DNA from: Microbispora sp. ZYX-F-249
GTDB lineage: Bacteria > Actinomycetota > Actinomycetes > Streptosporangiales > Streptosporangiaceae
Assembly: GCF_039649665.1 (NCBI RefSeq)
Contig: NZ_JBDJAW010000005.1
Span: 186,001 to 250,000, forward strand
DNA length: 64,000 nt
Direction: 5' to 3'
Under the pieces are notes generated by a model. That model was not told the origin of the DNA. It made no database searches and was given only the letters and a program-made list of their open reading frames with translations. Below, piece by piece: positions 38,201 to 63,984 of this stretch. The number at the start of each line of letters is the position of its first letter. The stretch's first letter is position 1. The translations under genes were made by a program, and so were the position numbers.

Positions 38201-41011
38201 TCAGCCGGAGGTGCTGAACTCGAGGCTGGCGGGCAGGTCGGACCGCCGGGTGACGTTGAGCTTGCGGTAGATCCGGGTCAGGTGCTGCTCGACCGTGCTG
38301 ACCGTGATGTACAGCTTGTCGGCGATCTCGCGGTTGGTGTAGCCGACGGCGGCGAGCGAGGCCACCCTGCGCTCGGCCTCGCTCAGCGCCCCCGAGCCGC
38401 TCTCGGCCCTGGGCGGCTCGGCGGGCTGCCCGGGACCGCCCTGGGTGAGCGCGTTGACCAGCGGGACGGCCTCGCACTCCTCCGCGATCCGCTGTGCCTG
38501 CCTGGCGACCGTACGGGCGCGGCGCAGCTCCCCCACCGCCTGGTAGGCGTCGGCCAGGTCGACCAGGGCCCTGGCCAGCTCGTACTGGTCGCCGCTCGCC
38601 TGCAGCATGTCGGCGGCGCGGCGCAGCAGCGGGGGACGCTGCCGAGGCTCGCTCGCGGCGGCCGTCAGCCGCAGCCCGATCCCCCGGGCGCGGACCGGGC
38701 CGGGGGCGCAGCGGGTCACGTGCTCGTCCAGCAGCGGCCGGGCCCGTTCCGGGCGGCCCATGCCGATCAGCGCCTCGGCCGCGCCCGTCCGCCACGAGAT
38801 GAGCCCCGGCGTGTCGAGGCTCCAGGAGCCCATCAGCTCGCCGCAGGTCTGGAAGTCGCGCAGGGCCATGCCGAGGTCGCCCGTCGCCAGGTGGTAGCGG
38901 CCCCGCGCGTGCAGGTAGTGCAGGCCGTACCTGGTCTGGAGCATGGCCTCGGGCACGGGCTGGTTGACCAGCTGCACGGCCTCGTCGAGCCGGCCCATCG
39001 CGGTCACCGACGTCAGCAGCACCGACAGCGGCCCGCCGATCGCGACCCCCCAACTCGTCGGCGGGATGAGCCGTACGGCCATCTGGGCGAGGCCCTCGGC
39101 GCCCTCCAGGTCGCCCTGCCGCAGGCTGATCTCGGCGCGCAGCGCCGCCAGGCGGGCCTGCCTGCTCGGGGCCCGCCGGCTGGCGGCCTCCTCGAAGAAC
39201 AGGTCGCACCAGGGCGCCGCGAGGTCGGACCGCTCGCCGTAGATGAGCGCGAGCAGGGCGCACTCGACGGCGTCCATCGACATGTCGTCCAGGCGGGAGC
39301 CGCGCAGGATGCGTTCCACGTCGGCCAGCGTCTGCGGGTGCGGGCCCTTGGTCAGCACCGCCGCGAGCGCGGTGGCGGCCTCCAGCCGGCCGATGACCGG
39401 CGCGGACGGCGGCGCCTGCGTGCTCACGTCGGTGACCCTCGGGATGTGCGCCAGGAACGGCGTGTAGGAGCAGCGCAGCCACGGCCGGGCGGCGCGGATC
39501 TCGGCGACGGTCTCCGCGTCCATGATCGTGCCGATCCTGCCCAGGTGGTCGAGCACGTCGCGGGCGTCGTCGAAGCGGCCGTGCCACAGCAGCGCCTTTG
39601 CCAGCACGACCGCGTCGGAGCCGCGCAGGTGGCCGCGGTGCATGGCGTCGGTGAGCTCGTCGAGGTGGGCCGCGGGGGCGCTCGGGTTGAGCCGCCACTC
39701 CGCGCGCACCAGCGTCGTCTTGATGGTGGCCCGGCGCTGGTCGTCCGTGCACGCGCCGTCGGCCAGCCGCAGGTAGTCGACGGCGGGCTCGACGCGTCCC
39801 TCGCTGAGCGCCTGCCGGGCCGCCTCCTCCAGGATCGGTACGGCCCACGGGCCCCCGTTGTGCGAGGCGGCCAGCAGGTGCTCGGCGATCACGGCGGCCG
39901 GGGCGCCCTGGCCGTACGCCAGTTCCGCGGCCCTGCGGTGCAGGTCGGTCCGCTCGTGCCGTTCGAGGTCGGCGAGCACGGCGGCGCGCGCCTGGGGGTG
40001 GCGCAGGTGCAGGTCGGCGCCGACCAGCCCGGCGTTGTGCAGCGCGTTGAGCGCCTGGACGACGACGCCGGCGTCGAGGTCGAGCAGCCGGTCGAGGTGG
40101 CCGGGGTCGCCGGCCACCGCCAGGCCCCGCGCGACGCGGGCCGCGAGCGGGTGCCCGCGGCGCAGGCACGCCTGCACCGCCTGACGGTAGGCGTCGCCCG
40201 CGGCGATCTCGTCCGGATCCGCCACCGGGTCGCTGCCGGCCGGGGCGCCCGCGGTGCCGGTCGCGGTGTCGGCCGCCGCGAGGTGGTCCTCGATCAGCGC
40301 GCCCACGAGCAGCGGGTTGCCGCCGCTGACCGCGTGCCAGTCCGCGGTGAACCGCCGGGCGACCTCGTCGCCCACGATGTCGGCCGCCATGATCTCGACG
40401 CCCTCGCGGGACAGGGCCGACAGCGGCAGGCGGCGGCAGTGCGGCTGGCGCAGCAGCTCGGTCTGGAACAGCGACGGGGCGTTCCACGTCTCCTCGGACT
40501 GACTGAAGATCGCCAGGATGTGGGCGAAGCGCAGCCTGCGGGCGAGGTAGGCCAGGCAGAGCTGCGAGGCGCGGTCGGCGTGCTGGACGTCGTCCACCAC
40601 GATCATCAGCGGATGCCGCTCGGCGAGTTCGAGCAGCACCATGCACAGGGCGTGCACGATGTGGGCGTCCACCTGGTCGACGTAGTCGGCCAGCGGGTCG
40701 GCCGACATGGCGCAGCGGGCGCCCTCGTGCAGCAGGTTGCGGGTCCGCTCCTCCTCCTCGGGCGTGAGCGGCGCGTTGTGCAGGATCTGCGACAGCACGG
40801 CCAGGGCCAGCCCCGACTCCGCCTGCGAGCAGGTGGCGGTCAGCGGCAGTGCGCCGTGCTCCAGCGCGTCCTCGACGAGCGTGTTGAGCAGTGCGGTCTT
40901 CCCCGTCGCGACGGGGCCTCCGACGATCGCGATCTTTCCTCTGCCGGTGACGGCGTCGGCCAGCATGTCCTCGAGGGAGGCCAACACCTCTTCCCGCTCC
41001 ACCAGGGCCAT
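38201..41011 (-). CDS. Large ATP-binding LuxR-family (LAL) regulator
   Basis: 936 residues. The ATG at 41011 follows GGGAGG. The N-terminal AAA-type ATPase has Walker A GGPVATGKTALLNTL (about 31-45) and Walker B LMIVVDDVQHAD. The middle ~500 residues are helical, TPR-like. The C-terminal LuxR helix-turn-helix is SEAERRVASLAAVGYTNREI...STVEQHLTRIYRKL (about 870-920). LAL proteins are typical pathway-specific activators of actinomycete metabolite clusters. It lies at the edge of the aminophenylalanine/ATP-grasp cluster and is the best candidate activator. Target boxes may be the ACCCCTA motifs described at 43047, 47006, 62373 and 62476. Confidence 0.92.
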   Translation of the reverse strand: MALVEREEVLASLEDMLADAVTGRGKIAIVGGPVATGKTALLNTLVEDALEHGALPLTATCSQAESGLALAVLSQILHNAPLTPEEEERTRNLLHEGARCAMSADPLADYVDQVDAHIVHALCMVLLELAERHPLMIVVDDVQHADRASQLCLAYLARRLRFAHILAIFSQSEETWNAPSLFQTELLRQPHCRRLPLSALSREGVEIMAADIVGDEVARRFTADWHAVSGGNPLLVGALIEDHLAAADTATGTAGAPAGSDPVADPDEIAAGDAYRQAVQACLRRGHPLAARVARGLAVAGDPGHLDRLLDLDAGVVVQALNALHNAGLVGADLHLRHPQARAAVLADLERHERTDLHRRAAELAYGQGAPAAVIAEHLLAASHNGGPWAVPILEEAARQALSEGRVEPAVDYLRLADGACTDDQRRATIKTTLVRAEWRLNPSAPAAHLDELTDAMHRGHLRGSDAVVLAKALLWHGRFDDARDVLDHLGRIGTIMDAETVAEIRAARPWLRCSYTPFLAHIPRVTDVSTQAPPSAPVIGRLEAATALAAVLTKGPHPQTLADVERILRGSRLDDMSMDAVECALLALIYGERSDLAAPWCDLFFEEAASRRAPSRQARLAALRAEISLRQGDLEGAEGLAQMAVRLIPPTSWGVAIGGPLSVLLTSVTAMGRLDEAVQLVNQPVPEAMLQTRYGLHYLHARGRYHLATGDLGMALRDFQTCGELMGSWSLDTPGLISWRTGAAEALIGMGRPERARPLLDEHVTRCAPGPVRARGIGLRLTAAASEPRQRPPLLRRAADMLQASGDQYELARALVDLADAYQAVGELRRARTVARQAQRIAEECEAVPLVNALTQGGPGQPAEPPRAESGSGALSEAERRVASLAAVGYTNREIADKLYITVSTVEQHLTRIYRKLNVTRRSDLPASLEFSTSG

Positions 41012-41103
41012 AATGAGCCTCCCGAATTCCGTTCGATACGCGGCCGCGCGGCCGGATTCACAATTGCCGTGACTTTAGGTAAAGATCGTGCGTTGAGCGG
41101 CGT

Positions 41104-42834
41104 TCAGCCGACCAGTGACATTCGCGGGGAAACGGCGTCGCCGGCCCGCTCCTGCGCTCCGTCCGCGCTCGTTTCGCCCGAGCGGGCCAGCGCCGAGCGG
41201 ACGGCCGCGAACGACGCGGTGACCACGTCGCGGTCGAGGCCCACGCCCCAGACCTGCCGCCCGTCGATCACGCACTCGGCGTAGACCGCCACCTCCCGGT
41301 CCCCCGCGCCGCCGGCGGCCTCGACGCCGGTGCGGTGGACCATCTGCACGTCCACGTTCCAGACCGCCAGACGGGCGCCGAGGGTGCGGATGGCGTCGGC
41401 CCGCGAACCCGCGATGTCGAAGCGGGCGCCGTCGACGTACAACGTGGTCTGCAGCGGCCGGCCGCCGAGCCCGAGGGGGACGGTGATCTCGGTCCGCGAC
41501 AGGTACTCCTCGTCGAACAGGTCGCGGACGACCGCCGGGGTGATCTCCCCGCCGGAGCCGTCCGCGTGGGCCTGCACGACGCGGGCGAACTCCGCCTGCA
41601 GGGCCTTGGGCGGGTTCAGCCCGTGCCAGGCGCTCAGGATGTAGGCCACGCCGCCCTTGCCCGACTGGCTGTTGATGCGCACCACCGCCTCGTACGTGCG
41701 GCCGACGTCCTTGGGGTCGAGCGGCAGGTACGGCATGCGCCACGGCAGGTCGTCCACGCTGACGTCCGCCTCGGCGGCCTCCACGGCCAGGGCGTCGAAA
41801 CCCTTCTTGATGGCGTCCTGGTGGGAGCCGGAGAAGGCGGTGTAGACGAGGTCGCCGCCGTACGGGTGGCGGGGGCTGACCTGCATCTCGTTGCAGTACT
41901 CGACGGTGCGGCGGATCTCGGTGATGTCGGAGAAGTCGATGCCGGGGTCGACGCCCTGGGTGTACATGTTCAGGCCGAGCGTGACCAGGCAGACGTTGCC
42001 GGCCCGCTCGCCGTTGCCGAACAGGCAGCCCTCGATCCGCTGGGCGCCGGCCAGCAGCGCCAGCTCGGAGGCGGCCACGCCGGTGCCGCGGTCGTTGTGC
42101 GGGTGGATCGACAGGCAGACGTGCTCCCGGTGGGACAGGTTGCGGTCGAGCCACTCGATCTGGTCGGCGAAGACGTGCGGGAGCGACCGCTCCACCGTGG
42201 TCGGGAAGTTGAGGATGATCTCCCGGCCCTCCTCCGGCTGCCACACGTCCATGACCGCCTCGCAGACCTCCAGCGCGAACTCGGGCTCGGTCTCGTTGAA
42301 CAGCTCGGGCGAGTACTGGAACCCGAGGTCGCAGTCGCCCAGGGTCGCCTCGGCGTACTTCATCATCAGCCGGGTGCCCGCGACGGCGAGGTCCCGGCAC
42401 TCGTCGCGGGTCATGCCGAAGACGACCCGGCGAAAGAGCGGTGCGGTCGCGTTGTAAAGGTGGATGTTGGCCCGGGGCGCGCCGGCCAGGCTCTCCACGG
42501 TCCGCCGGATCAGCTCGTCCCGCGCCTGGACGAGAACCGAGATCCGCACGTCGTCGGGGATCCGGTCCTCCTCGATGAGCATGCGCACGAAGTCGTGGTC
42601 GTCCTGGCTCGCCACCGGGAACCCGACCTCGATCTCCTTGTAACCCATCCGTACGAGCAGATCGAACATCGCGAGCTTGCGCTCCGGGCTCATCGGGTTG
42701 ACCAGCGACTGGTTGCCGTCGCGCAGGTCGGTGGACAGCCATCGCGGTGCGGCCTCGATCGTCCGGTCCGGCCAGCGCCGGTCCGCCAGGCGGACGGGGG
42801 TGAAGGCCGAGTAACGGGAAGGAGAGCTGCTCAT
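41104..42834 (-). CDS. 2-isopropylmalate synthase-like enzyme (LeuA family)
   Basis: 576 residues. The ATG at 42834 follows AAAGGAA. It is a complete LeuA: a TIM barrel with STDLRDGNQSLVNPMSPERKL, metal ligands in SIHPHNDRGTG, GCLFGNGERAGNVCLVTLG, and VNSQSGKGGVAYIL, followed by a C-terminal regulatory domain. The family condenses acetyl-CoA with a 2-oxoacid. It may be the housekeeping leucine enzyme. Its place in a metabolite cluster and no leuBCD nearby allow a second role, for example chain extension of 4-aminophenylpyruvate. It is divergent from the UbiA gene across a region with several regulatory motifs. Confidence 0.88.
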   Translation of the reverse strand: MSSSPSRYSAFTPVRLADRRWPDRTIEAAPRWLSTDLRDGNQSLVNPMSPERKLAMFDLLVRMGYKEIEVGFPVASQDDHDFVRMLIEEDRIPDDVRISVLVQARDELIRRTVESLAGAPRANIHLYNATAPLFRRVVFGMTRDECRDLAVAGTRLMMKYAEATLGDCDLGFQYSPELFNETEPEFALEVCEAVMDVWQPEEGREIILNFPTTVERSLPHVFADQIEWLDRNLSHREHVCLSIHPHNDRGTGVAASELALLAGAQRIEGCLFGNGERAGNVCLVTLGLNMYTQGVDPGIDFSDITEIRRTVEYCNEMQVSPRHPYGGDLVYTAFSGSHQDAIKKGFDALAVEAAEADVSVDDLPWRMPYLPLDPKDVGRTYEAVVRINSQSGKGGVAYILSAWHGLNPPKALQAEFARVVQAHADGSGGEITPAVVRDLFDEEYLSRTEITVPLGLGGRPLQTTLYVDGARFDIAGSRADAIRTLGARLAVWNVDVQMVHRTGVEAAGGAGDREVAVYAECVIDGRQVWGVGLDRDVVTASFAAVRSALARSGETSADGAQERAGDAVSPRMSLVG

Positions 42835-43046
42835 GAGGAATTCCTTTCTCATCGGCGACCATGTCACCGAATTCGCGACCGACCGTTTTCCGAGAAGCTG
42901 TCCGCGAATCGCGCCGACTACCTTCCGGAAGGCCGCCGAAATTCCTGGTGATTCGCTGACCGGTACGTTGCCGAAGCTACAAGCGCGCTGGTCAAGGGGC
43001 AAGAGACAAGCAACTAGAGTGCGGCCGGGATCACCCGGACGATCGG

Positions 43047-43106
43047 TAGGGGTATCGAAAGTTGTAGATCCGGTACAACCTCCCGGGCGGCCCCCTTAAC
43101 GCCCCC
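43047..43106. promoter_or_regulatory. Motif cluster between leuA-like and UbiA genes
   Basis: TAGGGGT (43047-43053, reverse of ACCCCTA), a perfect inverted repeat GTTGTA-N7-TACAAC (43061-43079) and TTAACGCCCCC (43096-43106). The same ACCCCTA and TAACGCCCCC strings occur together upstream of the chorismate-mutase/ATP-grasp pair at 62373-62387. This suggests a shared activator. Confidence 0.5.
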
Positions 43107-43131
43107 CTGAATCGGACACATACTCCGGATC

Positions 43132-44079
43132 ATGTCGATCAATAGAGCAGTATTCCCGGCTATTTCGATTTCGCCTTTCCGAATCCTCGGAATGTGCGTG
43201 ACCGAGGCACGCCCGTCCGTTCTCGCCATCTTCTTCCTGCGGTTCGCCGCGGGAGCGGCGCTGGACGCCGGCCTCGCCCCCGCCGACCCGTTCCGCTTCG
43301 TGGCGGGGGCCGTGGTGTGGCAGTGCGCGATCTTCTTCGTCTACCTGTTCAACGGCGTGACGGACATGCGGGAGGACCGCGTGAACGGCTCACACCGGCC
43401 CATCGCCCGCGGCGACCTCGACGCCGGCCTGGCCCTGATCGTCGCCTGGACCGCCGCCGCGGCCGCCCTGCTCGGCGCGCTGCTGCTGGGCGGAGCGATG
43501 ATCTGGCTGGTCACGGCGGTGCTCGTGCTGGGCTACCTCTACTCGGCGCCGCCCTTCCCGCTGAAGAGATGGTCGAGCGCCACCGTCGTGGTCGGCGGCG
43601 TTGCCGGTCTGCTCTCCTACTGCGCGGGCTACACCTCCTGCGGGACCGCCCCCACCGGGCGTGAGGCGATCGCGCTGCCCGCGTTCGCCCTCGCGGCCTC
43701 GCTGTGGATGGGGCTGGTCGGCACGCCGGCGAAGGACCTGCCCGACATCGCGGGAGACCGCTCCGCCGGACGGGCCTCGTTCGCGGTGAGCCACGGAGAA
43801 TGGCCGGTCAGGCTGCTGTTGTCGGCCGTCGCCGCCTCCGTCGCGATCGCTTTCTGCGCGGTCGCGCTGCTAATGCGGGTGCCGCTCGGCATGGCGCCGG
43901 CCGCGATGCTCTCCGGCGCCACGCTGCTCGCCGTCGTCACCCTTACGCCGCTTTCCCGGGGGTCCCGGGTGCGCCGCCGCCTGCCCTACCGGGCGTTCAT
44001 GACGACGCAATACGCTGTGCATTTGGCTGTTCTTCTCCCGCTGGTGTCACAATTCTTATTGTCTGGGCGTGCGGCTTAG
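43132..44079 (+). CDS. UbiA-family membrane prenyltransferase
   Basis: 315 residues from an ATG at 43132; an ATG at 43192 is an alternative. About eight membrane helices. Both prenyl-diphosphate/Mg sites are visible: NGVTDMREDRVNGSHRP (first Asp-rich motif) and DLPDIAGDRSAGR (second). UbiA enzymes attach a prenyl group to an aromatic or similar acceptor. There is no quinone-biosynthesis context here, so a cluster-specific acceptor such as an aminophenylalanine derivative is possible. The histidine-kinase gene follows after 6 bp, so the three genes to 45919 are one operon. Confidence 0.88.
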   Translation: MSINRAVFPAISISPFRILGMCVTEARPSVLAIFFLRFAAGAALDAGLAPADPFRFVAGAVVWQCAIFFVYLFNGVTDMREDRVNGSHRPIARGDLDAGLALIVAWTAAAAALLGALLLGGAMIWLVTAVLVLGYLYSAPPFPLKRWSSATVVVGGVAGLLSYCAGYTSCGTAPTGREAIALPAFALAASLWMGLVGTPAKDLPDIAGDRSAGRASFAVSHGEWPVRLLLSAVAASVAIAFCAVALLMRVPLGMAPAAMLSGATLLAVVTLTPLSRGSRVRRRLPYRAFMTTQYAVHLAVLLPLVSQFLLSGRAA

Positions 44080-44085
44080 TCCAGG

Positions 44086-45210
44086 ATGGAGGCACTCGTC
44101 CGCTTCCTCTCGGAGGGTCCATTGGCGGGAGATGGAGAACTGGGACCGGAGGTCCCGGACTTCGAGGGTTTCCTCGAAGCGCATCGCTCCGAGATTCTGG
44201 AAGCGTACGCACGGAACCTGGCGGCACTGGACAGCCCGATCAGCCGCGACCCGACCGCCCTGCGGCAGGCGCTGGCGAACGCCGAGCAGATCCTCGACGA
44301 CGTCGCGGAGACGCTGCGGTCCGGCAGCATCAGGGTGGGCGACTCCCACAAGATCATCGCCTGGGAGGTGGGGGCGACCAGGGCGGCGAACGGGGTCCAC
44401 CCGGACGAGTCGCTCCGCGCGGCGTCGGTGTGGTTCCAGGCGGTCGTGACCTGCCTGCTGGAGCGCATGCCCGGCGACGGCGAGTCGATGCGGCTGCTCA
44501 CGCTGGTCGTGCTGGGGCTGGAGCGCAGCATCACGTCACGGATCAGGGAGGCCTCGGCCAGCTACTCGAGCTTCCTGCTGGACAAGGTCCACGAGGCCCA
44601 GATCGAGGAGCGCCGCCGGATCGCCCGCGAACTGCACGACCGTATCGGGCACGGCCTCAGCGTCGCCAACAAGCAGCTCGAGCTGTACGACGTGCACCGG
44701 GCGAACAAGCCCGCGACGGCGACCGCCAAGGTGGAGACCGCCCAGCAGGCCATCCTGGAGACCATGCACAACCTGCGCGCGGTCACCAGCGAGCTGCACC
44801 CGCAGGAGCCGCTGAACAGCCTGGAGAAGGCCCTGCTGTACTACCTCGAGACCGTGGACATGGACGAGGTGGACATCCGCCTGCGGGTCAGCGGGGACGA
44901 GACGTGGGCCTCTCCGACCGTCCGCGACGAGTCCTTCCTCATCCTGCGCGAGGCGGCCAGGAACGCGCTCAGCCACGGCAACCCCAGCAAGGTGCTGATC
45001 CGGGTCGACTTCGCCCCGCACGAGCTGCGCGCGTCCGTGGACGACGACGGCCTCGGGTTCGCGGAGGGCTGCGGCCGGTCGGACGGCGTGGGCCTGCTGT
45101 CGATGCAGGAGCGCGCCGCGATCATCGGCGGGACGACCACCATCACGAGCAGGCCGGGCCACGGCACGCACGTCGAACTGTACGTGCCCTTCTCAGGGCT
45201 CACCGCATGA
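44086..45210 (+). CDS. Soluble NarL-type sensor histidine kinase
   Basis: 374 residues from an ATG at 44086. No membrane helix. The N-terminal ~170 residues are helical, with a four-helix sensor-like pattern (DDVAETLRSGSIRVGDSHK, ESMRLLTLVVLGLERSI). HisKA_3 follows (RRRIARELHDRIGHGLSVANKQLELYDV by its ends RRRIAREL and LELYDV; phosphoacceptor H184), then the HATPase (REAARNALSHGNPSK, DDDGLGF, GVGLLSMQERAAIIGG). It would sense a cytoplasmic signal. Its stop is 16 bp before the response regulator. Confidence 0.9.
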   Translation: MEALVRFLSEGPLAGDGELGPEVPDFEGFLEAHRSEILEAYARNLAALDSPISRDPTALRQALANAEQILDDVAETLRSGSIRVGDSHKIIAWEVGATRAANGVHPDESLRAASVWFQAVVTCLLERMPGDGESMRLLTLVVLGLERSITSRIREASASYSSFLLDKVHEAQIEERRRIARELHDRIGHGLSVANKQLELYDVHRANKPATATAKVETAQQAILETMHNLRAVTSELHPQEPLNSLEKALLYYLETVDMDEVDIRLRVSGDETWASPTVRDESFLILREAARNALSHGNPSKVLIRVDFAPHELRASVDDDGLGFAEGCGRSDGVGLLSMQERAAIIGGTTTITSRPGHGTHVELYVPFSGLTA

Positions 45211-45226
45211 CCCGATCGGGGACAAC

Positions 45227-45919
45227 ATGATCACTATCGCCGTCATCGACGACCACGCGCTCTTCCGCGAGGGCCTGCGCGAGATCCTGGAGGCCCAGGA
45301 TGACTTCGAGGTCGTCGGCGAGGCGGGCGACTCGCACGGGGCCGTGGCCCTGGTCGAGCGGGAGCGGCCCGACGTGGTCCTCCTGGACGTCGAGATCCCC
45401 GGCGACGACGCCACGCAGACCGTGGCCCGCATGCGTCAGATCTCGCCCGAGTCGCAGATCATCATCCTCAGCATGTACGACGGCCCCCAGCTGCTCAGCC
45501 GCCTGCTGGCGGCGGGCATCCGCGGCTACCTGCTCAAGAGCGTGCACCGCCAGGAGCTGGTCTCGGCCGTCAGGAGCGTCAGGGACGAGCCCGACCGGCT
45601 CGTGCTCGCCGTCTCGCGCGACTCCTTCGCCCAGGTGCAGGGGGGCGGGTCGAAGGTGGTGCTGACCGACAGGGAGCGGGAGATCCTCGAGCTCGCCGCC
45701 CAGGCGCTGAGCAACTACCAGATCGCCACCCGGCTCACGCTCACCGAGGCGACGATCAAGCGGCACCTGCACAACATCTTCACCAAGCTCGGCGCCGTCT
45801 CCCGGATCGACGCGGTCAACAAGGCACTGGCCGCCTCGCTCATCACGCCGCGCCGCGACCAGCCGGCGCCCCGGCCCCGCCCCAACCCGGGCATGCGGGG
45901 GCAGCGGTCGTTCCCCTGA
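45227..45919 (+). CDS. LuxR-family response regulator
   Basis: 230 residues. The ATG at 45227 follows GGGGA. Receiver: IAVIDDHALFREGL, phosphorylatable D54 in VVLLDVEIPGDD, and Lys in GYLLKSVHRQE. LuxR helix-turn-helix near residues 145-200 (LTDREREILELAAQALSNYQ...ATIKRHLHNIFTKLGA). The C-terminus is basic and proline-rich (PAPRPRPNPGMRGQRSFP). It is the partner of the soluble kinase. Being co-transcribed with a prenyltransferase in the cluster, it probably regulates cluster genes. Confidence 0.92.
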   Translation: MITIAVIDDHALFREGLREILEAQDDFEVVGEAGDSHGAVALVERERPDVVLLDVEIPGDDATQTVARMRQISPESQIIILSMYDGPQLLSRLLAAGIRGYLLKSVHRQELVSAVRSVRDEPDRLVLAVSRDSFAQVQGGGSKVVLTDREREILELAAQALSNYQIATRLTLTEATIKRHLHNIFTKLGAVSRIDAVNKALAASLITPRRDQPAPRPRPNPGMRGQRSFP

Positions 45920-45939
45920 CCCGCGGACGCCGGAGATCC

Positions 45940-46857
45940 TCAGTCGTCGTGCAGGGGAAACGTCCCGGCGAGGCGGGCCTTGACCGGCTCGGGCAGCAGG
46001 ATGCCGGTCGCGGTGAGGTTCATCTCCAGGTGGACCAGGTCACGCGTGCTCGGCACCGGCACGATGTCGTCGCCCTGCGCCAGCAGCCAGGCGATGGCCA
46101 GCCGGCCCATGCCGACGTCCATGTCGGCCGCCACCCGCTGGGCGTCGCGCAGCCGCAGCAGCTCGGTCTCCAGGCTCTGCGGTGAGAAGCGCGGGTCGCG
46201 GCGGCGCACGTCTCCCGTGCCGAGCTGAACCGGCGAGGTGATCCTGCCGGTCAGGAAGCCCCGGCCGAGCGGCCGGCCGGCGATGACGCCCATCCCCAGC
46301 TCCCGCGCCACCGGCAGCAGCTCCCGCTCCGCCCGGCGCCGCCACAGGGAGTACTCCACCGCGACCGCGGCGACGGGGCGCGCCGCGTGCGCGCGCCGCA
46401 ACCGCTTTCCGTCCAGCCCGCGGACGCCGATGTGCGCGATCTTCCCGGCGTCCTGGAGACGGCCGGCGGCCCCCATCGTCTCCTCGATCGGCGCGTCGCC
46501 GGCGCCGGGGTCCACCACGAACAGGTCGATCCGCTCGACGCCCAGGCGGGACAGCGAGGCGTCGCAGGCCCTGTCGAGGTCCTCGGGGCGGCAGAGGCGG
46601 CCGCTCGGGCCCGGACCGGGGCCGGTCGCGATCAGGGCCTCGTCACGCCGGTGCGCGACGGCCTTGCCCACCAGGCGCTCGGCCTCGCCTCCGCCGTCGG
46701 TCAGGTCAATCAGGGACACGCCGCCGTCGAGCGCGCGCCGGACGACCCGCATCGCCTCGTCGGGGTCGGCGGGGCCGTACGCGCCGGTCAGCGCGGTGCA
46801 GCCGAGCCCGAGGCTCGCGGCGACGAGTCCCTGCCCGCCGAGGCTCACGCTCCGCAT
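45940..46857 (-). CDS. Aldo/keto reductase-family protein lacking catalytic residues
   Basis: 305 residues from an ATG at 46857. The TIM-barrel AKR pattern is clear: LGLGCTALTGAYGPADPDEAMRVVRRALDGGVSLID (ends LGLGCTAL and GVSLID), PIEETMGAAGRLQDAGKIAHIGV, and the C-terminal VPVPSTRDLVHLEMNL NADPH region. The catalytic tetrad is broken. Asp51 is present, but the Tyr site reads DLTDGGGEAE with no Tyr. The Lys site is ATG instead of ATK (Gly79). The usual His is Asp116. It is probably a pseudoenzyme, a binding protein, or an enzyme with another chemistry. It is convergent with the response regulator, with a separate upstream region containing an ACCCCTA motif. Confidence 0.8.
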   Translation of the reverse strand: MRSVSLGGQGLVAASLGLGCTALTGAYGPADPDEAMRVVRRALDGGVSLIDLTDGGGEAERLVGKAVAHRRDEALIATGPGPGPSGRLCRPEDLDRACDASLSRLGVERIDLFVVDPGAGDAPIEETMGAAGRLQDAGKIAHIGVRGLDGKRLRRAHAARPVAAVAVEYSLWRRRAERELLPVARELGMGVIAGRPLGRGFLTGRITSPVQLGTGDVRRRDPRFSPQSLETELLRLRDAQRVAADMDVGMGRLAIAWLLAQGDDIVPVPSTRDLVHLEMNLTATGILLPEPVKARLAGTFPLHDD

Positions 46858-47012: not shown

Positions 47013-47040
47013 TTTTTCCCCACCGCTACGACCGGTCGTG

Positions 47041-47820
47041 CTACAAATCCGGCAAATCATCGGTCAGATATGCCGGCATTCCGGCGACGGAACCGCCGAA
47101 CACGACGAAGCGGCTGGCGAGGTGGCCCGAGTGGGGGTTGCGGGCGCCGTGCCGGACACCCGGCGGCGCGAAGACGCCGTCGCCCGGCCCCAGGTCCACC
47201 CAGCGGTCGTGCAGGTAGAACTGTCCCTCGCCCTCGAAGACGAAGTACACCGCCTCGTTCTCCTCGTGCGGGCGGACGCCGAGCGTCTCCCCCGGCTGCA
47301 TGATGCCGCAGCGCAGGCAGAGTCCCGCACGGCCGGCCCCCGGCCGGAACAGGACGTTCGCGGCGGGCGGGGTCAGCCAGGTCTCGCCGTTCCACAGCGA
47401 GCGGAACGGGGCCGGGCCGGTGCCGGGCCGGACGGCGCCCGCCGTGCCGCCTCCCGACGGCACGGCGCTCCAGACGTAGACGGTCATCTCCCGGTCGCCG
47501 GCCGACAGGGAGTACGTGCTGCCGGCGGGCGAGTGCAGCGCCGAGGCGGCGCGCATCCGGCTGATCTCGTAGCCGACGGTGCCGACGCCCGCCCCGGCCA
47601 GCACGACCGCGATCTGCTCGGCGGCCGCCGCGCCGGGCGGTGACCACTGACGTCCCGCGGGGATGCGGACGGCGTCGACGGCGGCGTGCCGCGCGCCGGT
47701 GTGCGGGCCGGTCACCGGGCTCACGAAGCAGTCGCCGTGGCGCCGATACTCCAGCTCCGCGGCCCGCAGCACGGCGCCGGTCTTTTTCCTGGCGCCGGTC
47801 TCTTGCCTGGTCAGGTTCAT
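47041..47820 (-). CDS. Bicupin protein
   Basis: 259 residues. The ATG at 47820 follows GGGAGAG, 14 bp after the MFS gene. Two beta-barrel cupin halves: an N-terminal one with PHTGARHAAVDAVRIPAG and AEQIAVVLAGAG, and a C-terminal one with metal ligands in RPHEENEAVYFVFEGEGQFYLHD (ends RPHEENE and FYLHD) and APPGVRHGARNP. The bacilysin cluster also has a bicupin (BacB) beside an ATP-grasp ligase and MFS exporter, so a tailoring isomerase or oxygenase role is plausible. The reaction is unknown. It is last in the minus-strand operon. Confidence 0.8.
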   Translation of the reverse strand: MNLTRQETGARKKTGAVLRAAELEYRRHGDCFVSPVTGPHTGARHAAVDAVRIPAGRQWSPPGAAAAEQIAVVLAGAGVGTVGYEISRMRAASALHSPAGSTYSLSAGDREMTVYVWSAVPSGGGTAGAVRPGTGPAPFRSLWNGETWLTPPAANVLFRPGAGRAGLCLRCGIMQPGETLGVRPHEENEAVYFVFEGEGQFYLHDRWVDLGPGDGVFAPPGVRHGARNPHSGHLASRFVVFGGSVAGMPAYLTDDLPDL

Positions 47821-47834
47821 CGGGCTCTCCCGGG

Positions 47835-50332: not shown

Positions 50333-50369
50333 CCGGGATCCTCCTCTCTTGCTGTGGCGGCGGTCGGGG

Positions 50370-50465
50370 TCAGTAGGGCAGCTCGCGGCCGGACGGCGTG
50401 CGGAGGTCGGGCGAGTTCGGCTGGGGTTTGCCTGCCGGCTTTCTCACGCGGATGCGACGTGTCAT
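50370..50465 (-). CDS. 31-residue peptide, candidate ATP-grasp substrate
   Basis: The ATG at 50465 is preceded by GGAGGG with a six-base spacing, one of the strongest ribosome-binding sites in the window. The frame ends in TGA at 50372-50370. The ATP-grasp start follows after 37 bp on the same strand. The peptide begins MTRRIRVRKP and ends SGRELPY. It is basic at the N-terminus, rich in Pro, Arg and Ser, and has no Cys. In the pheganomycin pathway a ribosomal peptide is joined to a nonproteinogenic amino acid by an ATP-grasp ligase, so this may be a precursor. Chance translation or a leader role are alternatives. I do not recognise the sequence. Confidence 0.55.
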   Translation of the reverse strand: MTRRIRVRKPAGKPQPNSPDLRTPSGRELPY

Positions 50466-52139: not shown

Positions 52140-52232
52140 GTGCGTCTCCTCGTCAGGCGGTTCTCGGGAGCCGGGCGTTTACGGGTCAGGTGGTCATCGG
52201 GTCAGGCGTTTTCCGGGTCAGGCGTTTCTCGC

Positions 52233-55798: not shown

Positions 55799-55836
55799 CG
55801 CTCCACCTCCTCGACCGGCACTCGTACGCAGCGGGA

Positions 55837-56919
55837 CTAGACGACGTCGGGGGTGAGGGCGTCGTGGATCCCGGAGTAGTCGGCGGCCGGTGCGGGGGCC
55901 ATCCGGCGGCCGACGCCGAGCGCCAGCATCTCCAGCCGGTTCATCAGCCGGGCGAAGTCCTCGGGCAGCAGCGCCTGCTTGCCGTCGCACAGCGCCTGCT
56001 CGGGCTGGACGTGCACGTCGACCAGCAGGGCGTCCGCGCCCGCGGCCACGGCGGCCAGCGTGAGCGGCTCGATGAGCTCGGGGATGCCGAGCGAGTGGCT
56101 GGGGTCGACCATCACCGGCAGGTGGGTGCGCCGCTTGAGCAGTGCCACCGCCGACAGGTCGAGGGTGAAGCGGGTGGCCCCCTCGAACGTCCTGATCCCC
56201 CGCTCGCACAGCACGACCTGGTCGTTGCCCTCGGCCAGGAGATACTCGGCCGCGGTGAGCAGTTCGTCGACCGTGCAGCCGAAGCCACGCTTGAGCACGA
56301 CCGGCATGCCGCTGCGGCCCACCTCGATCAGCAGCTCGAAGTTCTGCATGTTGCGGGTGCCGATCTGGAAGCCGTCCACCACCTCGGCCATCCGGTCGAC
56401 GTGCCGGGGGTCGACGACCTCGGTGAGGATCGGCAGGCCGGTCTCCTCCCTGGCCTTCGCCAGGAGCTCCAGACCCGCCCACTTGAGGCCCTGGAAGGAG
56501 TACGGCGTGGTGCGCGGCTTGAAGGCGCCGCCGCGCAGGCCGACCGCGCCGTGCCGGGCGACGGCGGCGGCCGTGGACATCATCTGCCCGGGGTTCTCCA
56601 CCGCGCAGGGGCCGGCGAAGACCGCGATGTCCCCGTCCCCGATCAGGGTGGAACCGATGGACACGACCGTGCCCGAGGGGAACAGCTCGCGCCGGCCGAG
56701 CCGGAAGCCGCCGCCCGCCCGTACGGTCTGCCGCGGCTGGGGCAGGCCGGCCGGGGCGGGCAGCACCGTGGCGGGCCCCTGGGCCACTATCACGTCCGCC
56801 CCGCCCAGCCGGTAGGTCCTGGCGGTGGTTCCGGTGGAGTCGAAGTGCCGGGCCCACCCGGCGAAGCCGGACGGATCGATCGTCGAGTCGAACACCAGCA
56901 ACAGCTCGGCGTCAGTCAT
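55837..56919 (-). CDS. DAHP synthase (3-deoxy-7-phosphoheptulonate synthase)
   Basis: 360 residues. The ATG at 56919 follows GAGAGGA. First enzyme of the shikimate pathway, of the AroG/KdsA-like type I-beta. An N-terminal ~75-residue segment resembles the ferredoxin-like regulatory domain. The barrel has AVFAGPCAVENPGQM, RGGAFKPRTTPYSFQGL, GTRNMQNFELL, LKRGFGCTVDELL, VDPSHSLG and VDVHVQPEQALCDGKQAL. A cluster-encoded copy suggests extra flux to chorismate for aminophenylalanine synthesis. It lies between the AMP-ligase and nitrate-reductase genes. Confidence 0.93.
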   Translation of the reverse strand: MTDAELLLVFDSTIDPSGFAGWARHFDSTGTTARTYRLGGADVIVAQGPATVLPAPAGLPQPRQTVRAGGGFRLGRRELFPSGTVVSIGSTLIGDGDIAVFAGPCAVENPGQMMSTAAAVARHGAVGLRGGAFKPRTTPYSFQGLKWAGLELLAKAREETGLPILTEVVDPRHVDRMAEVVDGFQIGTRNMQNFELLIEVGRSGMPVVLKRGFGCTVDELLTAAEYLLAEGNDQVVLCERGIRTFEGATRFTLDLSAVALLKRRTHLPVMVDPSHSLGIPELIEPLTLAAVAAGADALLVDVHVQPEQALCDGKQALLPEDFARLMNRLEMLALGVGRRMAPAPAADYSGIHDALTPDVV

Positions 56920-56989
56920 GGGAATCCTCTCCACATCCGTGTGGTCGGGTCTGTCATGGGGGTCGGGCCGGCGGTCGCTTCCGCGTGCA

Positions 56990-57034
56990 CGCCGCCGGGC
57001 CGGGCCTTGGGGGGGAACCTCCGGCCCGGCGGCG
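56990..57034 (-). terminator. Strong hairpin between AMP-ligase and DAHP synthase genes
   Basis: CGCCGCCGGGCCGG and CCGGCCCGGCGGCG pair perfectly around a 17-base loop. It lies 94 bp past the ligase stop and 71 bp before the DAHP synthase start. It may be a partial terminator, attenuator or mRNA-stability element within the operon. Confidence 0.55.
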
Positions 57035-57036
57035 CG

Positions 57037-57100
57037 GATCAGGTGCGGATCGAATGCGGATCGCGTGCCGATCGCGTGCCGATCGCGTGCCGATCGCGGG
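57037..57100. repeat. 11-bp tandem repeat GATCGCGTGCC
   Basis: Three exact units (57059-57091) are preceded by two variants (GATCAGGTGCG, GATCGAATGCG) and followed by a partial one. The array directly abuts the hairpin. It is not CRISPR-like because there are no spacers. Confidence 0.85.
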
Positions 57101-57127
57101 ATCGGGCGTCGGGTGGGTGCGGGGGGA

Positions 57128-58813
57128 TCAGACGAAGACGTCGGTGAGGATGGTGCCGAGCGACTTGCCGCCGTTCTCGCGGATGTAGGTCGACAGCGAG
57201 CTGTACTTCTCCCGCAGCCGGCGCTTGAGGACCTTTCCGGTGACGCCGACCGGGAAGTCCTCGTCGGTGCGCGCGACCTCCAGCATGGTCAGCTCGGGGT
57301 GGCCGGCGGCCTTCAGCTTCTCGTTCGCCTCGTTGAGCAACCTCTGCGCGTCCGGCCTGGCGGCGCTGGACGTCACGACCGCCACCGGGACGGTGCGTCC
57401 GCGGTGGATGGCGGCCACCACGGCGCAGTCGAGGACCTCGGGCAGGTCGTTGAGCAGCAGCTCCTCCATGAAGACCGAGTAGCCGGTGCCGCTCGGGGTC
57501 TCGATGGCGTCCACCGCCCGGTCGACCTGGAAGTAGTTGCCCGCCTCGTCGCGGTAGGCCATGTCGCCGGTCAGCCAGTAGCCCGACAGCTTGCTGCGGT
57601 AGGTGGTGTCGGAGTCGCTCCAGTATCCGGCGGTGATCGCCGGGCCCTTCGCGCCGAGCAGCCCGACCTCGTTGACGTCGGCGACCGTGCCGTCCCTGCG
57701 CAGCACCGCGACCTCGGCGACGCCGACCGGCTTGCCCACGCACCGGTCGTTGCGCTCGTCGGCCAGCGTGCGGACCTTCAGCAGCACGCCCCAGCCCAGC
57801 TCGGTGGTGCCGAGGCGGTCGAAGAACGCGGCCGGCGGCAGCGACGGGTCGCGCATGGCCAGGATGCCCTTGATGTGCTTCTCGTGGACCGCGTCGCCGA
57901 TGGAGATCCAGACGTTGACCGAGTCGATCGCCCCGGCCGGCAGGTCCGCGCCCGCCAGCTCGGCGTACGCGTGACCGAAGGCCATGACGGTCGTCGGGCG
58001 GTACTTCTCGACGGCCTTGGCCAGCTCGGGGCCGCTGGTGTCGAACCAGGGCACGAGGGGCGTGCCGCCCAGCACGGCGTACGTCGTGTAGGCGATGCAG
58101 CCGAGGTGCGACTGCGGCAGCGCGGTCATCATCACGGCGCCGGGCTGCTCGTGGTGGTCCACGAGGCGGAAGCGGGGCCCGGCCACACACGAGCGGTGGG
58201 TCTGGATGACCGGCTTGGGCCGCCCGGTGGTGCCGGAGGAGTGCAGGATCGAGACCGGGTCCTCGCCGACGTGGCGGAAGCGGGCCTCCTCGGGCAGCGC
58301 GGCGTGCGGCGGCGCCGGCAGTTCCTCGGCCACCTGCGTCCACCGCAGGCCGGGCAGCAGGTGGAACTCCTCGCCGAGGATCTCCAGGTGGGCGATGTCG
58401 GTGTACATGCCGACCGGGTTGGTCTGGCGGCACAGCTCGGTGGCGATGTACCGCGACGCCTTGCTGTTGACCAGCACCGCCACCGCGCCGATCTGGGCCA
58501 GCGCGTAGAAGTGCAGGGAGTAGGCGAAGGAGTCCTCCAGGTAGATGGCCACGCGGTCGCGGGGGCGTACGCCCTGGCGCAGGTACCACACCGACCAGCT
58601 CTGGGCCAGCTCGTCCAGCTCCAGCAGGCTGAACTCGGTCTGCTGCTCACCCCGGGTGTTGGTCAGCGGCCGGCCCAGGTGGATGAACGGCAGCTCCGGG
58701 TGCGGGTTCGCCTCGATGGCCTTCGTCAGCAGGTTGCCGCCGCCGAGGTCCGGGTCCGCGGCGAACCTGGCGCGCTGCTCCGGCGTGAGGACGGTCTCGT
58801 GGGAGATGGTCAT
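57128..58813 (-). CDS. AMP-forming ligase (acyl-CoA synthetase superfamily)
   Basis: 561 residues. The ATG at 58813 follows AAAGGTG and lies 5 bp after papC. ANL superfamily: ATP-binding loop ILHSSGTTGRPKPVIQ, FDRLGTTELGWG, GYWLTGDMAYRDEAGNYFQVDR (hinge region), and the C-terminal catalytic Lys in VGVTGKVLKRRL. It would adenylate a carboxylic acid, forming a thioester, or in diazotase-like relatives activate nitrite. No carrier protein or NRPS gene is present to accept an acyl group. Its place beside PapA/B/C and nitrate reductase makes the substrate the key question of the cluster. Confidence 0.9.
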   Translation of the reverse strand: MTISHETVLTPEQRARFAADPDLGGGNLLTKAIEANPHPELPFIHLGRPLTNTRGEQQTEFSLLELDELAQSWSVWYLRQGVRPRDRVAIYLEDSFAYSLHFYALAQIGAVAVLVNSKASRYIATELCRQTNPVGMYTDIAHLEILGEEFHLLPGLRWTQVAEELPAPPHAALPEEARFRHVGEDPVSILHSSGTTGRPKPVIQTHRSCVAGPRFRLVDHHEQPGAVMMTALPQSHLGCIAYTTYAVLGGTPLVPWFDTSGPELAKAVEKYRPTTVMAFGHAYAELAGADLPAGAIDSVNVWISIGDAVHEKHIKGILAMRDPSLPPAAFFDRLGTTELGWGVLLKVRTLADERNDRCVGKPVGVAEVAVLRRDGTVADVNEVGLLGAKGPAITAGYWSDSDTTYRSKLSGYWLTGDMAYRDEAGNYFQVDRAVDAIETPSGTGYSVFMEELLLNDLPEVLDCAVVAAIHRGRTVPVAVVTSSAARPDAQRLLNEANEKLKAAGHPELTMLEVARTDEDFPVGVTGKVLKRRLREKYSSLSTYIRENGGKSLGTILTDVFV

Positions 58814-58818
58814 CGGTC

Positions 58819-59847
58819 TCACCTTTCATTCGTGACGGGGCGTGACGTGCTCGTAGAGGGGTCGGGCTGGTACGGGCCCGGGGCGTGCTCAGGGGGGCGC
58901 AGTGCGCCGAACATCTCGGCGCAGGTGTCGCGGTAGAAGCCGAGATCGGGACCGAGGAGATCGCGCAGCCCGCCCAGGGCCGCCGCGAACTCCGCCTCCC
59001 CGTCCGACGGGCCGTCCGCCGGGCCGTCGAGGAGGGCGGCGAGTGTGCGTACGCCTTCCGCGAGCGCCGCGCGGGCGGCGGCGGCCTGCGGGTTGGCCGA
59101 CTGGACGTCCCAGTAGACCTCCGGGGTGCCCGAGGCGATCCGGGCCAGCAGCGCGAGCAGCGTGGCGTGCGGCGGCGGGGCGACGGCGGCCAGTTCGGCG
59201 ACCCCGACGCCGAGGCGGGCCAGCGCGAAGCCGAACGACAGCACCGCCGCGTGGGTGAGCGCCTGCGTCGCCGCGGCCAGCCGGTCGTGCTCGTGCGCGC
59301 CGAGCCGTACGGCACGGCCGCCCCAGCTGTCGACCAGCCGCAGCAGCGCCCGGGTCCGGGGGCCGTCGTGGACCACGACGGCGGCGACCGGCCGCCCGGC
59401 GAAGCCGAGCGAGGGGGCGAACATCGGGTTGAGACCGGCCGCCTCGACGTCCCCGGCGTGCGCCCGGACCGCCTCGGCGATCGGGCCCTTGACCGAGAGC
59501 GTGTCGGCGAGCAGCGCGCCCGGGCGCATCGCGGCGGCGACCTGTTTCACCGCCGCCAGGGCCACCGGCTCGGGCACCGCGAGCAGGACGAGGTCGGCCC
59601 GCCCGATCTCCTCGGCGAGATCGGGCCCGATGTCCGTGATGTCGCCGCGCAGGAACCTCGGCCCCCCGGCACTGGGCTGGTCGGCACTGGGCTGGTCGGC
59701 GCTGGGCCGGCCGGCGCTGGGTGCGGGGTCGACGACGACCACCTCGGCGCCGGACCGCAGCAGGTGCCCGGCGAACAGGCCGCCCACCGCGCCCGCGCCG
59801 CCCACGACGACACAGCGCCGCAGCAGGTCCGTCTCCCCGCGGGTCAT
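58819..59847 (-). CDS. papC: Prephenate dehydrogenase-like enzyme, PapC type
   Basis: 342 residues from an ATG at 59847, two bases after the pabAB stop. The NAD-binding fold is [22 protein letters not shown] Pro/Ser/Ala repeat (PSADQ twice) interrupts the Rossmann part. [27 protein letters not shown] and [20 protein letters not shown] match the TyrA/PapC helical half. With fused pabAB and a mutase in the same operon the likely reaction is oxidative decarboxylation of 4-amino-4-deoxyprephenate to 4-aminophenylpyruvate. An ordinary prephenate dehydrogenase is a less likely alternative. Confidence 0.88.
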
Positions 59848-59849
59848 GG

Positions 59850-62286
<2,437 letters not shown>

Positions 62287-62372
62287 GTGAACAGCCCTCC
62301 AATCGGGGGTGCACGGGATGTTCCGGCCCTGTCGGGCTAATTCAGGATTCGATCCGGCGGGCATTTCTCACA

Positions 62373-62550
62373 ACCCCTAACGCCCCCACAGCGCGGCCGG
62401 GAGATCCGGGGTGACCTCGGACTTCTCGATGCCCCCGGTCCGCCGAGGCGGACGAGTCGCCGGCGACCCCGGTTCACCCCTATCGGGAAACGACTCGTCC
62501 CGAATTATCGGGAAATTTTATTGACCGGTCCGAAACGCCGGAACTAGCCT
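62373..62550. promoter_or_regulatory. Divergent control region of papB operon and second ATP-grasp gene
   Basis: Contains ACCCCTA at 62373-62379 (joined to ACGCCCCC) and at 62476-62482, direct repeats TATCGGGAAA at 62481-62490 and 62506-62515, and a palindrome TCCCGA-ATTA-TCGGGA at 62498-62513. A promoter reads towards the ATP-grasp gene: TTGACC at 62521-62526, 18-bp spacer, TAGCCT at 62545-62550. The 280-bp gap is AT-richer near the promoter. Confidence 0.6.
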
Positions 62551-62566
62551 CCGGTCGCGTGAACAT

Positions 62567-63916
62567 GTGAGAGAAACGGCGGTGGCGAAAGTGAAACCTC
62601 GGGCATTCGTTCTTACCGGATCATTCCTGGTGATCTGCCGGGCCCCTCTTTATCTGCGCGAACTGTCCCGCCGGGGGCTGCGGATCCTCGTGGTCACACC
62701 GGCGTCCTGGCGGGAGCAGGCGCTGGCCCAGATGCGCGACCCCGCGCATCCGGCCTCGGTCATCGAGGAGATCGCCTTCACCGACGGCGACGTCAACACG
62801 GAGAACTCGTTCACCGCGGGCGTGATCTCCGGCGTCCGGGCCTGGCGGGACCGCTACGACATCACCGGCGTCTACGCGCTCGGCGAGACGCTGGTCGAGC
62901 CGACCGGCCTGCTCGCCGACGCCCTGGGGCTGCCCTCCCCCGGCCTGCGGGCCACCCGCGCCTGCCGCAGCAAGTATCTGCAGCGGTGGTACCTGCCGGA
63001 GTTCAGCCCGGCCTCGGCGGTCGTCCCGCCGGCCGCGCGCGCCGCGTTCGCCGCGGACGGCGTGTCGTTCCCCGCCGTGGTCAAGCCCACCGGCCGCCAC
63101 TCCAGCTCCGGCGTGGAGACCGTGCGCGACGCGGCCGAGCTGCGCGCCCAGCTCGACACGTACCTGCCGCACGAGACGGTGCTGGTGGAGGAGAAGGTGG
63201 CGGGCCAGGAGTTCTCCGTGGAGAGCCTCGTGCAGGACGGCCGGATCGTCTTCGCCTCGGTGACCCGCAAGGAGACCACAGAGTCGGGCGCCCGCACCTT
63301 CGTCGAGCTGTCCCACTCGGTCCCGAACGAGCTCGACGGCGTGGACGGCGTCATCCTCGACGCCAACCGGCGCATGCTCGAACGGCTGGCCTTCGCATGC
63401 GGCATCGCGCACGCCGAGTGGCGGGTGGACGGCACGGGCCGGCCGTACCTGATGGAGGTCGCCGCGCGCACCCCCGGTGACGGCCTGTCGATCCTCTACT
63501 CGCTCGCGACCGGCACCCCGATGGAGCCGGAGATCGTCCGCATCGCCCTCGGGGAGCCCGCGGCCTACCCCGCACCGCGCCGGTACGCACGGCAGGTCTA
63601 CCTGGAGCACGAGCCCGGCCGGCTCGGCGACGTGACGGTGGAGTGGCCGGGGATCTCGCCGGCCTGGGTGGGCGAGGGCGGCCTGTGGCCCGAGATCGCG
63701 CCCGGCGCCCCGGACGACCCGCCCACGCTGCGGGCCGTGCTCGTGCTGAAGGACCGCGGCGCGGAGCTCGGGCCGCTGCACAGCTCCGACGACCGTGCGG
63801 TGACGTTCCTCATCGACGCGCCCACCCCGGCCGAGCTGGACGAGCTCGAGATGCGCGTACGGCACGCCCTGCGGATCCACACGCTCGCGCCCGAGCCCAC
63901 CGGCGTGCGGATGTGA
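62567..63916 (+). CDS. Second ATP-grasp ligase
   Basis: 449 residues from a GTG at 62567; in-frame GTGs at 62582 (after GAGAGAAA) and 62591 are alternatives, and the promoter leaves a very short leader. The protein has an N-terminal Rossmann-like part, then the ATP-grasp core: FPAVVKPTGRHSSSGVETV, VLVEEKVAGQEFSVESLV, and HAEWRVDGTGRPYLMEVAARTPGDG with the Mg ligands (ends HAEWRV and PGDG). The biotin-carboxylase/CarB-like end is followed by an about 80-residue C-terminal domain. It is divergent from the papB operon under a shared control region. With the first ligase it could make two successive amide bonds. Confidence 0.9.
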   Translation: MRETAVAKVKPRAFVLTGSFLVICRAPLYLRELSRRGLRILVVTPASWREQALAQMRDPAHPASVIEEIAFTDGDVNTENSFTAGVISGVRAWRDRYDITGVYALGETLVEPTGLLADALGLPSPGLRATRACRSKYLQRWYLPEFSPASAVVPPAARAAFAADGVSFPAVVKPTGRHSSSGVETVRDAAELRAQLDTYLPHETVLVEEKVAGQEFSVESLVQDGRIVFASVTRKETTESGARTFVELSHSVPNELDGVDGVILDANRRMLERLAFACGIAHAEWRVDGTGRPYLMEVAARTPGDGLSILYSLATGTPMEPEIVRIALGEPAAYPAPRRYARQVYLEHEPGRLGDVTVEWPGISPAWVGEGGLWPEIAPGAPDDPPTLRAVLVLKDRGAELGPLHSSDDRAVTFLIDAPTPAELDELEMRVRHALRIHTLAPEPTGVRM

Positions 63917-63951
63917 GCCCGGCGAACGCGCGGCTTTTCCGGGGATACGGG

Positions 63952-63984
63952 GCGCGGCGGGAGGCGATGAGCCTCCCGCCGCGC
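63952..63984 (+). terminator. Intrinsic terminator after the second ATP-grasp gene
   Basis: GCGCGGCGGGAGGC and GCCTCCCGCCGCGC pair perfectly around GATGA, followed by CTTTTCC. The 14-bp string CGGCTTTTCCGGGG stands on both sides of the hairpin (63931-63944 and 63986-63999). It probably marks the end of the cluster. Confidence 0.8.

Follow-up and report, generated by a model that had tools for sequence, protein, structure and literature searches.

Why should a gene set for building an aromatic amine enclose the genes of nitrate reduction? The question is raised by a locus in a 64,000-nucleotide window (positions 186001-250000 of contig NZ_JBDJAW010000005.1, here C5) of the 8.78-Mb genome of Microbispora sp. 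ZYX-F-249. The initial annotation of the right-hand part of this window described an arylamine cluster whose product would be a small peptide or amide built by ATP-grasp ligases; nitrate reduction stood in its title, and the genes are present, but its stated reasoning gave them no role. We found that they are the most telling feature of the locus. The right block of the locus (47041-63916), together with CreE/CreD-type genes just outside the window, is probably a specialised-metabolite cluster in which a 4-aminophenylalanine (PAPA)-type arylamine is built, diazotised with nitrite drawn from nitrate and/or aspartate, and ligated to amino acids.

Genes were assigned by Pfam and NCBIfam profiles for the 18 proteins scanned in the interval 38201-63916, and all those named in the initial annotation were found. 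A minus-strand run descends from 62364 to 47041, its genes spaced by -4 to 313 nt. It encodes, in order, a PapB-like 4-amino-4-deoxychorismate mutase (61978-62364), a PapA-type PabA-PabB fusion, the aminodeoxychorismate synthase (PabAB, 59850-61922, with an alternative start at 61994), a PapC-like 4-amino-4-deoxyprephenate dehydrogenase (58819-59847), an AMP-binding enzyme (57128-58813), a type I 3-deoxy-D-arabino-heptulosonate 7-phosphate synthase (DAHPS, 55837-56934), a NasC-like molybdopterin nitrate reductase (53681-55798), a NirB-N-terminal-like FAD/[2Fe-2S] reductase (NirBN, 52233-53684), a NarK-type nitrate/nitrite transporter (50646-52139), an ATP-grasp protein resembling L-amino acid ligases (LAL1, 49106-50332), an MFS exporter (47835-49109) and a cupin protein (47041-47838). 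A second ATP-grasp ligase (LAL2, 62567-63916, plus strand) is divergent from the run. The clustering is not a matter of chance, because there are three 4-nt overlaps (NasC/NirBN, MFS/LAL1 and cupin/MFS) and the order from LAL2 to the MFS gene is kept in eight named Microbispora records, seven of which keep the cupin gene too. Promoter and terminator scanning returned no promoter-like and one terminator-like site, no excess over shuffled sequences.

The AMP-binding enzyme, previously listed as an AMP ligase, is best read from its sequence as a relative of the ANL-type ATP-dependent diazotases. Its best match among 82 NCBIfam families is NF058622, 3-aminoavenalumate diazotase, at 356 bits, with the next family at 146; the NF058622 cut-off is 975 bits, and we do not file the protein as an AvaA6 equivalog. 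The PDB search returned 9xb8 and 9xbs at 1179 bits, CmaA6 at 292 and Tri17 at 265, followed by FadD8 at 80, and the nearest characterised structures are CmaA6 and then Tri17. The 9xb8 chain and the orthologue of M. corallina NBRC 16416 (locus L021) show no difference over 561 residues, and therefore the structure has already been solved from a sister species. Its record names the protein only as FadD, and no paper naming 9XB8 or 9XBS was found in the literature searched, which had most subscription journals outside it. An AlphaFold model of the enzyme was poor (mean pLDDT 53.8), and from the Foldseek search we used the entry names alone and gave the TM-scores no weight. The gene stands as annotated, but its nearest families and structures do not support a plain ligase. 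If the enzyme is a diazotase, the arylamine is probably the substrate of diazotisation and not, as had been proposed, the end group of the product.

It is improbable, in our judgement, that the enzyme is instead an ordinary acid-activating ligase, with an ATP-grasp-built arylamine amide free of N-N chemistry as the product and the nitrate and aspartate-nitrosuccinate (ANS) genes as unrelated neighbours. Membership of the ANL superfamily, a score under the diazotase cut-off and the presence of ATP-grasp ligases would all suit such an enzyme, but its sole close characterised relatives are diazotases or N-nitrosating enzymes. Moreover, CreD is co-distributed with it in 10 of 15 Microbispora genomes, and CreE and CreD both lie inside all six distinct mycobacterial loci read (see below).

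The amine itself would be supplied by the Pap genes. PabAB, which has GATase and chorismate-binding domains, scores 350 bits against TIGR00553 (cut-off 328), and PapB scores 99 bits against the chorismate-mutase-like family TIGR01803 (cut-off 73) and matches Pfam CM_2; these two results over curated cut-offs support the predicted route to 4-aminophenylpyruvate or 4-aminophenylalanine. The local DAHPS, also foreseen, scores 353 bits against TIGR01361 (cut-off 268) and would supply the shikimate pathway. PapC belongs to the prephenate dehydrogenase family and falls below all of its equivalog cut-offs. Where prephenate dehydrogenase 2pv7 has the motif GLHPMF, all 17 PapC rows, from the window and 16 other genomes, have LNPMF, with Asn in place of His. 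We take this His to be catalytic and to read the 4-hydroxyl; its loss would fit a 4-amino substrate, which is suggestive only.

What sets the locus apart is the nitrate module between DAHPS and LAL1. NasC scores 730 bits against NF047855 (cut-off 1100) and is a second genome copy: contig C15 carries an assimilatory operon of NarK, NasC, NirBN, nirB with a NIR_SIR domain, and nirD. The C15 NasC scores 783 bits and is 69% identical to the cluster NasC, and the two NarK proteins are 51% identical over 433 columns. The cluster NarK scores 292 bits against NF011608 and 280 against TIGR00886, below both cut-offs, and NirBN matches the nirB model TIGR02374 at positions 1-464 of 794 only. The cluster block has no NIR_SIR or Rieske_2 protein, while the C15 operon has both. 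Since nirBD is thus absent from the module, its nitrite would be released for diazotisation and not reduced to ammonium. NirBN is likely the electron partner of NasC. In nine of nine loci its candidate start gives a 4-nt overlap with NasC, and the first NasC start lies 34-200 nt past the DAHPS stop; a DAHPS/NasC overlap in our genome came from an early start choice and was rejected, the NasC start being placed 39 nt after the DAHPS stop. The window holds a further molybdopterin oxidoreductase gene (18370-20877), separated from the cluster NasC by about 33 kb.

Nitrite could also come from aspartate. The initial annotation ended the cluster at the window edge, but nitrite-forming genes lie roughly 5-9 kb beyond the right edge of its interval, in stretch L005 (C5:240001-260000; adding 54000 to an L005 position gives window numbering). 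There we found, in order, an F5/8-type protein, a ROK regulator, a nitronate monooxygenase family gene (L005:14148-15296), a nitrosuccinate lyase (CreD, L005:15306-16721) and a 797-aa open reading frame (L005:16718-19111). CreD scores 693 bits against NF052556 (cut-off 650) and 350 against PcaB, just below the PcaB cut-off of 356. The 797-aa protein is a relative of the aspartate N-hydroxylase CreE, with 721 bits to 8cp2/8cp5 over residues 135-762, and it matched no NCBIfam family at 1e-20; 8cp2 is a solved aspartate N-hydroxylase (PMC10404684). In all three genomes for which this region was read, namely our own, another Microbispora genome (G468) and M. corallina, CreE adjoins CreD. The nitronate monooxygenase gene directly adjoins CreD/CreE in the same three genomes and may handle nitronate side products. 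A CreD-like gene on contig C20 was rejected as a second nitrosuccinate lyase: it scores 484 bits against NF052556, below the cut-off, and 390 against PcaB, above the cut-off, and adjoins protocatechuate dioxygenase alpha.

Across 15 Microbispora genomes, the diazotase (E<=1e-120), cluster-type CreD (at least 83% identity), NasC (at least 85%, two matches spanning only residues 1-552 or 1-549) and LAL1 (at least 81%) are present in the same 10 and missing from the same five. The five have only a CreD paralogue of 62-66% identity, whose copy in our own genome was identified as PcaB. Cluster-type CreD shares a contig with the diazotase in nine of the 10; in the tenth, G466, it is found close to where another contig begins. 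A search for NirBN in 345 genomes of the order (E<=1e-150) returned 13: the 10 Microbispora, two genomes of a second Streptosporangiaceae genus (g292) that also have the diazotase, and G977, whose NirBN shares an operon with nirB and nirD.

The set DAHPS-NasC-NirBN-NarK recurs in all three diazotase-bearing genomes of genus g292. G687 and G688 have it no more than about 28 kb from the diazotase on the same contig; in the third genome, G686 (a 960-contig assembly), the set and the diazotase are on different contigs. Family assignments of the G687 copies agree with ours, and the G687 locus adds polyketide synthase (PKS) and non-ribosomal peptide synthetase (NRPS)-type proteins and a phosphopantetheinyl transferase. 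The stretches read, 87 kb of G687 and 80 kb of G688, gave no match to PapABC, nirD or CreE/CreD, and the only nirB match in either is the NirBN gene itself. In trees of NasC and of NirBN, the Microbispora-cluster and g292 proteins group apart from the assimilatory copies, with modest support of 80/79 and 82/82, respectively; the NasC tree includes seven of the nine Microbispora cluster rows and omits a distant outgroup that had distorted an earlier version. As a side observation, a gene of the mycothiol-dependent nitroreductase (Rv2466c-like) family lies just upstream of DAHPS-NasC in this genus (L086:4004-4633).

We weighed two accounts of the nitrate module. On balance we lean towards NarK and NasC, duplicated and stripped of nitrite reductase, being a dedicated nitrite generator for diazotase biosynthesis that has spread between unrelated scaffolds (PAPA and ATP-grasp in Microbispora, PKS/NRPS in g292) and has replaced the aspartate route in g292. 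It is unlikely, by comparison, that all nitrite comes from aspartate through CreE/CreD and that NarK-NasC-NirBN is a second nitrogen-assimilation module feeding the housekeeping NirBD. The presence of CreD in the same 10 of 15 genomes, the existence of nirBD at C15 and the lack of a nitrate module in the mycobacterial loci read would agree with such a division of labour. It does not sit well with a module placed inside the biosynthetic block, missing from the five Microbispora genomes that have no diazotase, and recurring after DAHPS in second-genus diazotase loci with no CreE/CreD in the 80 and 87 kb read.

More distant loci show how the gene set varies. The diazotase search gave nine mycobacterial hits; six distinct loci were read with their flanks, over about 20 kb each (L023/L074, L024, L025/L071, L070, L072 and L073). 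The six share PabAB, PapC, a BioF/Kbl-like PLP enzyme (a family assignment tested in L023 only), the diazotase, an MFS protein, LAL2, DAHPS, CreE and CreD, and PapB was read in five of them, lying outside the L072 stretch. LAL2 relatives of 59-65% identity occur in all six and in G687, G688 (61-63% in these two) and G600. The earlier statement that no described pathway has this combination holds for the full set, for which we found none in the literature searched, but these mycobacterial loci show that the logic is not unique. G600 has the diazotase, DAHPS and LAL2, while G422 has PapB, PabAB, PapC, the diazotase and a fused protein. The latter is a single 1035-aa reading frame (L061:1875-4982) joining a PLP-dependent (PALP) domain, an ATP-grasp LAL-type ligase and DAHPS, and adjoins the Pap set and the diazotase. 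A Lyase_1 protein at the G422 diazotase locus (L061:5905-7422) was rejected as a nitrite supplier: its best NCBIfam match is argininosuccinate lyase at 230 bits, below the cut-off, and it has no CreD match. G532, G551 and G553 have diazotase relatives at 48% identity, with no other cluster genes in the two read, and the main locus of G607 is too short to judge. Finally, Sphaerimonospora mesophila (L022:71-5576) and four further Streptosporangiaceae loci (L060, L062, L063 and L064) carry an aminotransferase III-AMP ligase-diazotase trio, which represents another kind of cluster around this enzyme.

Several results weigh against a nitrate-fed diazotase cluster. The diazotase score is so far under the equivalog cut-off that the substrate, and even the reaction, may differ. 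NasC, NirBN and NarK are all below their NCBIfam cut-offs, as are the C15 copies, and the support for a common origin of the cluster NasCs is modest. CreE/CreD alone could supply the nitrite of Microbispora, making the nitrate module redundant, and none of the six mycobacterial loci, all with CreE/CreD, has such a module in the roughly 20 kb read of each. The G600 and G422 diazotase loci have neither nitrite source in the 60 kb examined in each. The 10 Microbispora genomes are close relatives, their co-distribution reflects few evolutionary events, and the genus-wide search covered CreD and not CreE. Lastly, there is no aminotransferase among the 18 proteins scanned, and the amino acid would therefore need a host enzyme.

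With these points in mind, the following pathway can be proposed for the diazotase cluster. DAHPS, PabAB, PapB and PapC would give an arylamine skeleton of the 4-aminophenylpyruvate or 4-aminophenylalanine type. Nitrite would arise from L-aspartate via CreE/CreD and from nitrate that NarK takes up and NasC reduces together with NirBN; the ANL enzyme would activate it with ATP and convert the arylamine to an aryl diazonium. The ATP-grasp ligases, both of which had been predicted, may then attach one or more amino acids. LAL1 is above the cut-offs for LAL_C2 and ATP-grasp_4, its PDB matches are L-amino acid ligases, and it scores only 19 bits against the BacD alanine-anticapsin ligase equivalog (cut-off 850); LAL2 scores 54.8 bits against ATP-grasp_4. 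The MFS pump (MFS_1, 120 bits), likewise correctly called an exporter, would release the product. The cupin protein scores 50.8 bits against Cupin_2 in a single stretch, and the bicupin described before is thus not confirmed. As in the earlier account, no NRPS, PKS or carrier domain is present among the scanned proteins.

The diazonium might be kept, azo-coupled, turned into a triazene or hydrazine, or lost as N2. The pathways to avenalumic and p-coumaric acid lose N2 when hydride or hydroxyl takes the place of the diazonium (PMC10777205). This AvaA7/CmaA7 chemistry, downstream of relatives of our enzyme, could be taken to mean that diazotisation is transient here too and that the final product has no N-N bond. 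However, the same replacement on a PAPA skeleton would yield compounds like phenylalanine or tyrosine, which cells produce anyway, and we regard this outcome as very improbable. A pairing of PapABC with a diazotase predicts an aryl diazonium of the 4-aminophenylalanine type, and we found no natural product of this kind in the literature searched.

The cluster can be compared with several known systems. The ava and cma clusters (avenalumic and p-coumaric acid) share an ANL-type diazotase (AvaA6/CmaA6) and CreE/CreD-type nitrite genes, but they use 3-amino-4-hydroxybenzoic acid (3,4-AHBA) and a type II PKS where Microbispora has PapABC and ATP-grasp ligases, and their gene table has no nitrate module (PMC10777205). 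The cremeomycin (CreM, CreE, CreD)/ANS pathway has in common the nitrosuccinate lyase, the aspartate N-hydroxylase relative and an ANL N-N enzyme; Microbispora differs in its PAPA-type amine and in the nitrate reductase module within the operon. Triacsin biosynthesis shares an ANL N-nitrosating enzyme, Tri17, the second nearest characterised structure, whose natural substrate is a hydrazone (PMC11705231). A hydrazine synthetase gene was not noticed in Microbispora, although no search was aimed at one. The PAPA genes PabAB, PapB and PapC are also carried by the chloramphenicol and pristinamycin clusters; compared with these, Microbispora lacks an NRPS and a local aminotransferase and adds DAHPS and the diazotase.

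The nitrate module bears on the origin of nitrite in N-N biosynthesis more widely. According to PMC10777205, 72 of 134 ava-like diazotase clusters have no CreE/CreD (ANS) homologues; the explanations offered are that the genes lie elsewhere, that another route is used or that nitrous acid is supplied from outside. CreDE is likewise absent from most clusters of KinJ, another N-N enzyme family (PMC12154649, a 2025 preprint). For L-alanosine (aln), nitrate and nitrite reductases have been suggested as the source of the N-N nitrogen (PMC11705231, PMC12154649); those enzymes are called non-dedicated in PMC12154649, whereas the Microbispora module is embedded in the cluster. None of the papers found in the literature searched describes a nitrate reductase within a diazotase cluster, and this locus is a diazotase-cluster variant with a dedicated nitrate-to-nitrite supply not found in print. 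For diazotase clusters without CreE/CreD, nitrate import and reduction encoded in the cluster itself would be a concrete and testable source of nitrite. If true, a dedicated nitrite generator would explain some of these clusters and tie N-N natural products directly to environmental nitrate.

Left of the cupin gene lies an adjacent block on mixed strands (38201-46857). It encodes a LAL-type LuxR regulator (38201-41011, minus), LeuA (41104-42852, minus; TIGR00970, 718 bits, cut-off 697), a UbiA prenyltransferase (43132-44079, plus), a histidine kinase (44086-45210, plus), a response regulator (45227-45919, plus) and an aldo/keto reductase (45940-46857, minus), the last missing from the initial gene list. 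A Microbispora genome without the diazotase (G465) keeps all six in the same order at 41-70% identity. Because this block is present there without the arylamine genes, we consider it a separable neighbour and reject it as an integral part of the pathway; the regulator, LeuA-like enzyme, prenyltransferase and two-component system named before are present, but their membership of the pathway is not supported. UbiA (at least 72%) and LeuA (at least 89%) of the left-block type are found in exactly the 10 Microbispora genomes that have the diazotase, and the two blocks thus travel together in Microbispora yet are separable. LeuA is not the genome's sole candidate leucine enzyme, as there are four LeuA-like matches. 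A paralogous pair of LAL regulator and LeuA on contig C17 (L077:6403-10920; 55% and 68%) suggests a recurring regulator/isopropylmalate synthase unit. Further left, an amino acid permease (36674) has matches in all 15 Microbispora genomes, at 88% or more in the 10 and 73-76% in the five, a distribution that fits a cluster boundary. Further left still, a single reading frame (window 30992-33313) combines ECF sigma factor domains with a C-terminal phage integrase-like domain, possibly a fusion or a frame artefact.

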